56,861 bases of DNA from positions 1 through 56,861 of the forward strand of contig NZ_QQZY01000011.1 in assembly GCF_003351045.1 (NCBI RefSeq), given 5' to 3'. Position 1 is the stretch's first letter. Every line of letters begins with the position of its first letter. A program made the translations under genes and the position numbers. The notes under the pieces are model-generated. The model made no database searches and had not been told where the DNA came from. It saw nothing but the letters and a program-made list of their open reading frames with translations. Shown in pieces: positions 23,908 through 26,555 of this stretch. Source of the DNA: Gaiella occulta. GTDB lineage: Bacteria > Actinomycetota > Thermoleophilia > Gaiellales > Gaiellaceae.

Positions 23908-24516
23908 CTACGCGCGCGGGACTCCGCGCCAGACGGCGACCGTCTCCGAGCCACGCGGGATCTCCGTCAGGCCCCCGTCCCGCACGACCGCGGCCCCCGA
24001 GCCGGCGAGCGCGTCCCAGCCCACACCGGAGGTCCCGGCCACGCGCGTCGCGAGGTCCTCGAGCGGGTCGACCATGAGCGCGCCGTGCGCGATCTGCGCG
24101 ATCGCCTTGCCGGCGCTCATCGGCAGACCGGTGTTGACGACGAGCAGGAGCTCGCCCGGCGCGGGCGCGGCGGGCGGCTCCAGCCCCGCGACCTCGCCCG
24201 CGAGCGCCTGCATGCGCACGAGCACGCGCTCGCGCTGCGAGCGGCGGCGCGGCGGCAAGCAGGCGACGTCCCCGACGCGCTCGTGGTCGAGCGCCCGTAC
24301 CTCCTCCCACTCGCGCGGCTCGGCGCGCAGGCAGATCTTGCGGAAGGAGGAGCGCCACCACTCCTCGAACGAGGCACGCCAGCGGTCGTCGTCGAGGTAG
24401 CGGCGCGCACAGCGCCGGGCGGCGAGCGCCCCCGCGGCCGCGAGTTCGGGGAAGGGGCGCGCCGTGCGCCGGCGGACGACGATCGCCATCGCCAGCGGGT
24501 CGTCGTCCGGCTCCAT
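23908..24516 (-). CDS. Peptidyl-tRNA hydrolase II-like protein
   Basis: 202 residues. The C-terminal part (about 120-200) has PTH2 hallmarks: LVVNTGLPMSAGKAIAQIAHGAL and VRDGGLTEIPRGSETVAVW. The segment between them is shorter than in archaeal or eukaryotic PTH2. The first 115 residues (DPLAMAIVVRR, then WRASFEEWWRSSFRKICLRA) resemble the N-terminal half of actinobacterial PTH2-like proteins. Activity on peptidyl-tRNA is plausible but not certain. ATG 24516 follows TACGCT by 6 nt. The gene is divergent from the selenoprotein candidate. Confidence 0.65.
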   Translation of the reverse strand: MEPDDDPLAMAIVVRRRTARPFPELAAAGALAARRCARRYLDDDRWRASFEEWWRSSFRKICLRAEPREWEEVRALDHERVGDVACLPPRRRSQRERVLVRMQALAGEVAGLEPPAAPAPGELLLVVNTGLPMSAGKAIAQIAHGALMVDPLEDLATRVAGTSGVGWDALAGSGAAVVRDGGLTEIPRGSETVAVWRGVPRA

Positions 24517-24558
24517 ACGCCAAGCGTAGAGGCGGCGCGGCCAGGTAGCCTCGGCAGC
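24517..24558. promoter_or_regulatory. Divergent leaderless promoters (PTH2-like gene / SelW-like gene)
   Basis: On the minus strand TACGCT (24528-24523) ends 6 nt before ATG 24516. On the plus strand TAGCCT (24546-24551) ends 7 nt before ATG 24559. Both fit leaderless transcription. The plus-strand box is direct evidence that a short gene, otherwise hidden by its UGA codon, begins at 24559. Confidence 0.5.
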
Positions 24559-24777
24559 ATGTCCGTCGAGATCTTCTACTGCCCCGTCTGAGCCGGCTAC
24601 GACCGCGAGGCCGCGCGTGTCGCGGCCGAGTTGCAGGCGGAGCGGGGGATCGAGGCCGCGGTGCTCGCGGGCGCGAGGTCCCAGTTCGACGTGGTCGCCG
24701 ACGGGGTGACGGTGTTCTCGAAGCAGCGGCTCGGACGCTTCCCCGAGCCGGGCGAGGTCGGGCGCCTGCTGCCGTGA
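24559..24777 (+). CDS. SelW/Rdx-family selenoprotein with in-frame UGA (probable selenocysteine)
   Basis: Reading the UGA at 24589-24591 as selenocysteine gives a 72-residue protein, ending at UGA 24775-24777. It has the Rdx/SelW plan: beta strand SVEIFYCPV, redox motif CPVU (Cys8, Sec11), helix DREAARVAAELQAERG, strands QFDVVADGVTVFS, and the family ending KQRLGRFPEPGEV. Family members have CxxU or CxxC at this place and are thought to be thiol oxidoreductases. Codons after the UGA keep the G/C-ending bias of real genes here. A strong stem-loop follows the UGA, and a TAGCCT box precedes the ATG by 7 nt. Read conventionally, only a 10-residue peptide would be made. Confidence 0.8.
24589..24627 (+). 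promoter_or_regulatory. UGA codon and candidate bacterial SECIS hairpin
   Basis: A perfect 7-bp stem (GGCCGCG 24609-24615, CGCGGCC 24621-24627) closes a 5-nt loop CGTGT (24616-24620). The loop starts 24 nt after the UGA, within the 16-37 nt range used by bacterial SECIS elements, and has a G at its second position as SelB recognition normally needs. It lies wholly in the coding frame, as bacterial SECIS elements do. Confidence 0.68.
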
Positions 24778-24799
24778 CGCGGGCCCGCCGCGCGGAGGC

Positions 24800-25768
24800 T
24801 CAGCGCAGCAGGAAGCCCTCGCCGAGCGGGTCGTCCGGATCGAGCACGAACACCGCCTCGCCGGTGCGGTAGGCGCGGCCCTCGACCTCGGTGACGACGG
24901 CGGGCCTGCCCGCGACCTCGGTGCCGCCGACGACCCGGCCGCTGAACGACGACCCCACGATCGACAGGTGGCGGAGCTCCTCCCCTCGCGGCAGCCGCGC
25001 CGACGCGTCGAGCAGGGCCAGCCGCGCCGAGGTGCCCGACCCGCAGGGAGAGCGGTCGACCTCGCCGTCGGCGAACACCGTCACGTTGCGCTGCGTGAGG
25101 GGCCGCTCCGCCTCCTCCTGCCAGAAGATCACGCCGTAGACGTCGCGCAGCTCGGGCTCGACGGGATGGACGACATCGTGCTCGGCCTCGATCGCCCGCT
25201 TGATCGCGCGGCCGAGCTCGATCAGCCGCGGCAGCTCGGCCCGCTCGACACGCTCCCGCAGCGACGCGTAGAAGGCGCCGCCGAAGGCGACGTCGACGGT
25301 GAACGGCCCTGCCTCGAGGCCGGTCGCCCACACGAACGACGGCACGTTGCGGAACCGCACCGAGCGCACCCTTCCGCCCTCGACGGCGGCCCAGGTCTCG
25401 ATCCTGCCGCAGGGCACGTCGACGACGACGCGGTTCTCGCCCTCGCGCCGCTCGACCACGCCCTCGTCCAGGGCCCAGGTGACGAGGGCGATCGTGCCGT
25501 GGCCGCACGCCGTGGAGTAGCCGGCGTTGTGGAAGAACACGACGCCGAGATCGGCGCCTTCGTCGTTTGCGGGGACGACGTGGCAGCCGTACATGTCGGC
25601 GTGCCCGCGCGGCTCGAACACGAGCAGCCGCCGCACGTGGTCGAGCCGCTCGCGCGCGTCGCGACGGCGCTCGAGGACCGTCCTGCCGCGAAGCGGCTCG
25701 GTGCCGCCGGTGACGATGCGAAACGGCTCGCCCCCTGTGTGGTAGTCGACGACGCGGATCGTGCTCAT
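24800..25768 (-). CDS. Proline racemase / 4-hydroxyproline 2-epimerase family protein
   Basis: 322 residues. Both catalytic cysteines are present: the first in YSTACGHGTIAL and the second in DRSPCGSGTSARLA. Having two cysteines fits racemases and 4-hydroxyproline 2-epimerases and argues against trans-3-hydroxyproline dehydratase, in which the second is Thr. The N-terminal DYHTGGEPFRIV is typical. The exact substrate is not settled: no hydroxyproline catabolic genes lie beside it. The ATG start is at 25768. It is convergent with the selenoprotein gene, 22 bp away. Confidence 0.85.
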   Translation of the reverse strand: MSTIRVVDYHTGGEPFRIVTGGTEPLRGRTVLERRRDARERLDHVRRLLVFEPRGHADMYGCHVVPANDEGADLGVVFFHNAGYSTACGHGTIALVTWALDEGVVERREGENRVVVDVPCGRIETWAAVEGGRVRSVRFRNVPSFVWATGLEAGPFTVDVAFGGAFYASLRERVERAELPRLIELGRAIKRAIEAEHDVVHPVEPELRDVYGVIFWQEEAERPLTQRNVTVFADGEVDRSPCGSGTSARLALLDASARLPRGEELRHLSIVGSSFSGRVVGGTEVAGRPAVVTEVEGRAYRTGEAVFVLDPDDPLGEGFLLR

Positions 25769-25784
25769 CGCGCCCGCGCGCGCA

Positions 25785-26555
25785 TCATGCGCCGGAGAAT
25801 CTCGCCGCGCGCTTCTCCAGAAAGGCCGCCACTCCTTCGGCGAAGTCGGCGGTCTCGACGGCCGACTGCTGCAGCTCCGCCTCGAGCGCGAGCTGCTCCT
25901 CGAGCCCCGCGGCGTGCGCATGCTCGAGCAGCCGCTTCGTCATCCCGACCGCGCGCGTCGGCAGCGACGCCCAGCCCGCGGCGATCTCGCCGAGGCGCTC
26001 GCCGAACACGCCGGCCGGCACGACCTCCGACACGAGCCCCCATGCGAGCGCCTCGCCGGCCGTCAAGCGCCGGTTCGAGCTCATCCACTCGAAGGCGCGC
26101 GCGAACCCGAGCAGGCGGTGGATGAACCAGCTTCCGCCGGAGTCGGGCACGAGCCCGATGCCGGCGAAGCCGGGCACGAAGCTCGCCGCATCCGACGCGA
26201 TGCGCACGTCGCACGCGCAGGCGAGCGAGAGCCCCGCCCCCGCGACCGGGCCGTTGACGGCGGCGATCACCGGCTTCTCGAGCGAGCGGATGCGGCGGAT
26301 GTTGGGGTGGTAGGTCTGCTCGAGCTCGTCGCGCAGCGAGCCGGACATGGAGGAGAGCTCGCGCAGATCCTGCCCGGCGCAGAAGCCGCGGCCCGCCCCG
26401 GTGATGACGACGGCGCGGACGGCGGGGTCGGCGGCGTCCTCGAGCGCCGAGCGGAGCGCGGCGTGGAGCGCACGGTCGAACGCGTTGAAGACGTCCGGTC
26501 GATTGAGGGTGATCGTCAGAACCGCGCCCTGGCGGGCGGTCAGCACCTCGCTCAT
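25785..26555 (-). CDS. Enoyl-CoA hydratase/isomerase family protein (PaaG-like)
   Basis: 256 residues of the crotonase fold: ITLNRPDVFNAFD, AVVITGAGRGFCAGQDL (first oxyanion-hole segment) and KPVIAAVNGPVAGAGLSLA (second). AFVPGFAGIGLVPDSGGSW and the FxxG(x)D pattern resemble PaaG-type epoxyphenylacetyl-CoA isomerase, which uses an Asp in this region. No phenylacetate operon is present, so a general CoA-ester role is equally possible. ATG 26555 follows TAGGCT by 6 nt. Confidence 0.82.
   Translation of the reverse strand: MSEVLTARQGAVLTITLNRPDVFNAFDRALHAALRSALEDAADPAVRAVVITGAGRGFCAGQDLRELSSMSGSLRDELEQTYHPNIRRIRSLEKPVIAAVNGPVAGAGLSLACACDVRIASDAASFVPGFAGIGLVPDSGGSWFIHRLLGFARAFEWMSSNRRLTAGEALAWGLVSEVVPAGVFGERLGEIAAGWASLPTRAVGMTKRLLEHAHAAGLEEQLALEAELQQSAVETADFAEGVAAFLEKRAARFSGA

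Follow-up and report, generated by a model that had tools for sequence, protein, structure and literature searches.

A predicted SelW/Rdx-family selenoprotein gene with a conserved SECIS hairpin in Gaiella occulta and its relatives

Introduction

Within a stretch of 56,861 nt from Gaiella occulta (referred to as the window), a short reading frame raises the question whether an in-frame TGA terminates translation or codes for selenocysteine (Sec). Starting from ATG 24559, the frame encodes the ten residues MSVEIFYCPV and then meets TGA as codon 11. A second TGA (24775-24777, codon 73) is the stop codon, and 61 residues are encoded between the two TGAs. Under the normal stop codon rule, the gene is cut after ten residues, and most annotations of a large actinobacterial group thus probably lack it. 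The first-pass annotation had expected standard gene callers to miss the gene, which is a reasonable inference.

We consider it very likely (probability about 0.96) that this region encodes a selenoprotein of the SelW/Rdx family, with the UGA being decoded as Sec. This interpretation is based on the frame, the protein family, the predicted fold, the machinery encoded in the host genome, and the conservation of the UGA and of the SECIS hairpin, all of which were obtained computationally. From these, we infer that Sec is inserted in the cell. The features of the locus are listed in Table 1.

Table 1. Features of the predicted selenoprotein locus (window coordinates).
Feature	Position	Strand	Basis
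TAGCCT, -10-like box (TANNNT), probable leaderless promoter	24546-24551	+	sequence; upstream regions of relatives
SelW/Rdx-family selenoprotein gene (predicted), 72 aa plus stop	24559-24777	+	read-through translation, Pfam, AlphaFold2, Foldseek
CPVU redox motif (Cys8, Pro9, Val10, Sec11)	24580-24591	+	translation; Cys8 and residue 11 invariant in 41 aligned sequences
In-frame TGA, predicted Sec codon	24589-24591	+	TGA at the aligned site in 70 non-redundant sequences (three Cys homologues apart)
bSECIS hairpin, 7-bp stem (24609-24615/24621-24627), loop CGUGU (24616-24620)	24609-24627	+	fold, pair conservation, covariation

Results and Discussion

The read-through product belongs to the SelW/Rdx family

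Translation bears out the frame proposed in the first-pass annotation, which had placed the UGA at the second redox residue of a CxxU/CxxC motif and had it followed by 61 further residues. The motif occupies residues 8-11. The G+C contents of the three codon positions (0.76/0.48/0.95) represent a signal which fits coding DNA. When the whole genome was searched for the Rdx family, a single place was matched, which is this gene with its one internal TGA.

The proposed membership in the SelW/Rdx family holds as well. The read-through product matches the Pfam family Rdx (PF10262) with 40.1 bits (cut-off 22.6) over profile positions 2-71 of 74. The best NCBIfam matches to the whole protein are NF041051 (SelTWH_Campy, 55.8 bits) and TIGR02174 (CXXU_selWTH, 32.2 bits), but neither reaches its curated cut-off (88 and 34.2, respectively), so that the gene would not be named from these models alone.

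The structure of the 72-residue product was predicted with AlphaFold2, using 41 window and locus sequences. The model (pLDDT 97.6, pTM 0.85) has the order beta-alpha-beta-beta-beta, followed by short C-terminal helices. The best Foldseek matches are all SelW-related chains, with TM-scores mostly in the range 0.78-0.87 (crystal structures 2obk, 2p0g, and 2fa8). The predicted fold is thus the thioredoxin-like Rdx fold.

The UGA is conserved among relatives

Within the same family, an Rdx match was obtained in 64 of 103 genomes, with a single TGA in each of the full-length matches. The sole match devoid of a TGA is a fragment of 29 residues located where a contig ends, and a Cys form of Rdx was not found in any of the 103 genomes. 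At the class level (354 genomes which are at least 80% complete), 51 genomes carry the TGA form and three carry a Cys form. The search for Cys-containing orthologues suggested by the first-pass annotation thus returned three homologues, all from one distant genus, which have CTQC at the same site.

In the alignment of the 70 non-redundant TGA sequences, that from the window included, the TGA always falls on the same residue. Several motif types occur among them: CPxU (the type of the window gene), CVPU, and a few cases of CVRU, CSSU, CGIU, CATU, and CAVU. Some genomes (G036, G046, and G101) have two Rdx copies. Genes of the CVPU type (loci L030-L034, L037, L040, L063, L066, L069, and L073) have a different SECIS stem with a mostly GGUCU-like loop, and no paa match was found beside them in the flanks that were inspected.

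An in-frame stop codon is the usual mark of a broken gene, and a hairpin seen in a single sequence is weak evidence in such G+C-rich DNA. The TGA might therefore be a true stop in a former CxxC Rdx gene which has become a pseudogene or is affected by a sequencing error. However, 70 sequences spanning many genera share the TGA at this site, with the frames intact on both sides, and the disrupted frames which the first-pass annotation had named as contrary evidence were not encountered among the relatives. In addition, the third-position bias persists past the TGA. In close relatives (57 pairs, on which this test rests), substitutions after the TGA concentrate at third positions (0.338 vs. 0.168 and 0.133). 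When the window gene is compared with all relatives, the third-position excess is weak (0.34/0.36/0.40) because distant pairs are saturated, so that only close pairs are informative. Furthermore, the hairpin is kept beyond the needs of the protein (see below). We consider a pseudogene or a sequencing error extremely unlikely.

The distribution of selA parallels that of the TGA form. In the class-wide set, selA is present in 43 of the 51 genomes with TGA-type Rdx vs. 149 of the 303 others (Fisher p 1.6e-6), and the class-wide selA list has no match for the three genomes with Cys-type Rdx. The eight genomes with TGA-type Rdx in which selA was not found are all drafts of 80-91% completeness, most with hundreds of contigs, and the gap looks like missing sequence. 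At the family level, the co-occurrence of Rdx and selA is significant (51/13/18/21, p 0.001) but leaky, as expected from incomplete assemblies, and serves here as supporting evidence only.

The SECIS hairpin is conserved beyond protein constraint

The TGA is followed by a hairpin which consists of a perfect 7-bp stem (GGCCGCG/CGCGGCC) and the 5-nt loop CGUGU. The first-pass annotation correctly described the stem and the loop length, but its distance of 24 nt from the UGA applies to the start of the loop; the stem starts at 17 nt. According to the bSECIS model, an apical loop of 3-9 nt, an upper stem of 4-16 bp, a G as the first or second loop base, a distance of 16-37 nt from the UGA to the apical loop, and a minimum free energy of -7.5 kcal/mol or lower are expected (PMC13188914). 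The hairpin agrees with this model in loop size, stem length, and spacing. The second loop base is a G, followed by U, and the G is kept in 70 of 70 sequences. The folding energy (-15.7 kcal/mol for the 27 nt from 24605 to 24631) is well below the limit.

The fold of the single sequence is only slightly better than that of shuffled sequences (z -2.1, 7 of 200 shuffles, for the 27 nt; z -0.3 for 49 nt). Because the DNA is so G+C-rich, the hairpin alone would prove little, and single-sequence folding was dropped as stand-alone evidence. It is the comparison with relatives that lifts the hairpin above chance and substantiates the earlier SECIS assignment. Across 61 aligned sequences, the stem pairs are standard in 98.2% of the cells, compared to only 26-54% in slid registers. 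Two-sided changes were found in 27 cells vs. 4.4 in shuffles and affect four of eight pairs, but the relatives are not independent, so that these covariation counts overstate the number of events.

The clearest evidence for the hairpin comes from silent positions. The pair at 24/30 nt after the UGA joins two third codon positions beside the loop; 60 of the 70 sequences have GC here and the remaining 10 have CG, without exception. The third-position base in the loop is T in 68 of 70 sequences, although T accounts for only 2.9% of the third positions in six genes from the window, where AGT is used once and AGC 35 times as a serine codon. As judged from the aligned sequences, this signal is not explained by protein constraint. 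Most CPxU relatives have GGGCCGCGAGUCUCGCGGCCGAG after the TGA, nearly unchanged across genera. The loop of the window gene is CGUGU instead of the usual AGUCU or GGUCU, and CGUGU was found in one relative (L100; L024 denotes the same place).

The host genome encodes the Sec machinery and a second selenoprotein candidate

The host genome is 97.9% complete. The search for the Sec machinery genes advised by the first-pass annotation retrieved all of them, as expected for the host of a bacterial selenoprotein gene: a family search gave one strong match for selA (C1:307019); selB follows directly (C1:308379); the gene for tRNA-Sec (selC, anticodon TCA, i.e. UCA) is found about 3 kb beyond selB (C1:311646); and selD is located at C1:188930. 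Their absence, which would have spoken against Sec decoding, was thus not observed. SelD itself (L011) was dropped as a further selenoprotein candidate; in the host genome it appears to be a Cys form (GGCAAK).

Because bacterial SECIS elements vary from gene to gene, a protein family search was used to test for FdhA as a further selenoprotein. A formate dehydrogenase of the FdhA type (G000:C3:72533-74401, L106) has an in-frame TGA after NSCNRT. This TGA is followed by a strong hairpin (CGUCGUC-GGUCU-GGCGACG) with a spacing in the same range as that of the Rdx gene. Its loop is the one seen in many CVPU-type Rdx relatives. The fdhA and Rdx genes have in common the in-frame TGA, the downstream hairpin with a small G-containing loop, and the machinery, but they belong to unrelated protein families and differ in the loop (GGUCU vs. 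CGUGU). Based on the sel genes and on the TGA and hairpin of FdhA, the host very probably decodes UGA as Sec in at least two genes, Rdx and FdhA.

The UGA might instead be decoded by a suppressor or near-cognate tRNA which inserts Trp or Cys; nothing was found that speaks for this, except that the identity of the inserted residue is inferred. Such decoding is very unlikely given the complete Sec machinery in the genome, the location of the UGA at a known Sec/Cys redox position, and a hairpin which fits the bSECIS model and resembles the design found in FdhA of the same genome.

Probable leaderless start and proposed mechanism

The first-pass annotation had noted a -10 box suited to a leaderless transcript. 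The box ends 7 nt upstream of the ATG, and its conservation supports the earlier assignment: a TANNNT box is present in 60 of 70 upstream regions, compared to 15.9 expected by shuffling. It is most often found 42-43 nt before the TGA and ends about 7 nt before the start codon in most relatives. The conserved box suggests that the mRNA probably starts at or beside the ATG.

We propose that translation of such a leaderless transcript would bring the ribosome to the UGA at codon 11, where SelB, attached to the hairpin located 18-36 nt further on, would deliver Sec-tRNA(Sec). The latter would be made by SelA with selenophosphate from SelD. Translation would then continue past the UGA to codon 72. 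The product would be a small thioredoxin-like protein in which Cys8 and Sec11 may form a selenenylsulfide and act in thiol redox reactions; such redox activity and the partners of the protein are proposed by analogy to its family.

Genome neighborhood

Downstream of the Rdx gene, the minus strand encodes a protein of the proline racemase family (24800-25921) and an enoyl-CoA hydratase (25785-26555). A long minus-strand ORF (24597-25508) overlaps the Rdx region, so that the conserved stretch might represent an antisense gene or an unrelated RNA element, with the protein reading being incidental. This is exceedingly improbable: the family match is on the plus strand, codon periodicity is seen, the C-terminus is conserved outside of the hairpin, and the protein model has a pLDDT of 97.6. 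Long antisense ORFs are common when the G+C content is so high, and further downstream the proline racemase family gene already occupies a different frame of the antisense strand. We thus retain the interpretation as a selenoprotein gene.

Rdx genes of the CPxU type often have PaaC-PaaD just upstream and/or a PaaG-like enoyl-CoA hydratase or proline racemase family gene facing them. Such a neighborhood recurs at loci L022, L029, L039, L044, L045, L046, L057, and L058. The recurrence supports common descent of the CPxU locus and weakly hints at a link to phenylacetate breakdown. That SelW of this lineage works with phenylacetate breakdown, where it might serve the oxygen-using phenylacetyl-CoA epoxidase step as redox partner or protectant, is a speculative and rather unlikely extension.

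Upstream, the minus strand encodes a 202-residue protein (23908-24516) with a match to PTH2 (peptidyl-tRNA hydrolase) over only 26 residues (profile positions 3-28 of 115). Either this assignment is a partial one, or the end of the reading frame may be incorrect.

Comparison with known SelW-like proteins

Bacterial SelW-like selenoproteins have been known since at least 2005, and the family itself is not new. Among the selenoprotein families of the Sargasso Sea set, they ranked first in abundance, with 48 genes (PMC1088965). A list from 2006 has ten SelW-like proteins in bacterial genomes, one of them in Symbiobacterium, which was there placed in Actinobacteria; the same paper remarks that Cys forms of SelW-like proteins are few or lacking among Sec users (PMC1794560). 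A review from 2026 lists SELENOW-like proteins as PF10262 with CxxU (PMC13188914, Table 1). No paper on the group reported here was found when the literature was searched for SelW or selenocysteine in Gaiellales/Thermoleophilia. What is new, as far as these searches reach, is a SelW group which is both large and conserved and occurs in Gaiellales-like Actinomycetota. It points to selenium use beyond formate dehydrogenase in these organisms, and its nearly frozen SECIS, with synonymous third-position support, represents a clean test case for SelB recognition in Actinomycetota.

With respect to structure, the model shares its fold with the Rdx/SelW-related structures 2p0g, 2obk, 2fa8, 2oka, and 3dex, and the sequence profile matches as well. 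The window protein has about 72 residues, whereas the chains in these structures have 103-107. It may also differ from them by the predicted Sec at the second CxxC residue.

With the known bacterial SELENOW-like proteins (PMC1088965; PMC1794560; PMC13188914), the window gene shares the small Rdx protein with CxxU near the N-terminus and the in-frame UGA with a bacterial SECIS behind it, still within the coding region. The group differs from these by its Thermoleophilia/Gaiellales-like affiliation, a near-invariant SECIS (GGCCGCGAGUCUCGCGGCC in most members), and a probable leaderless-type promoter.
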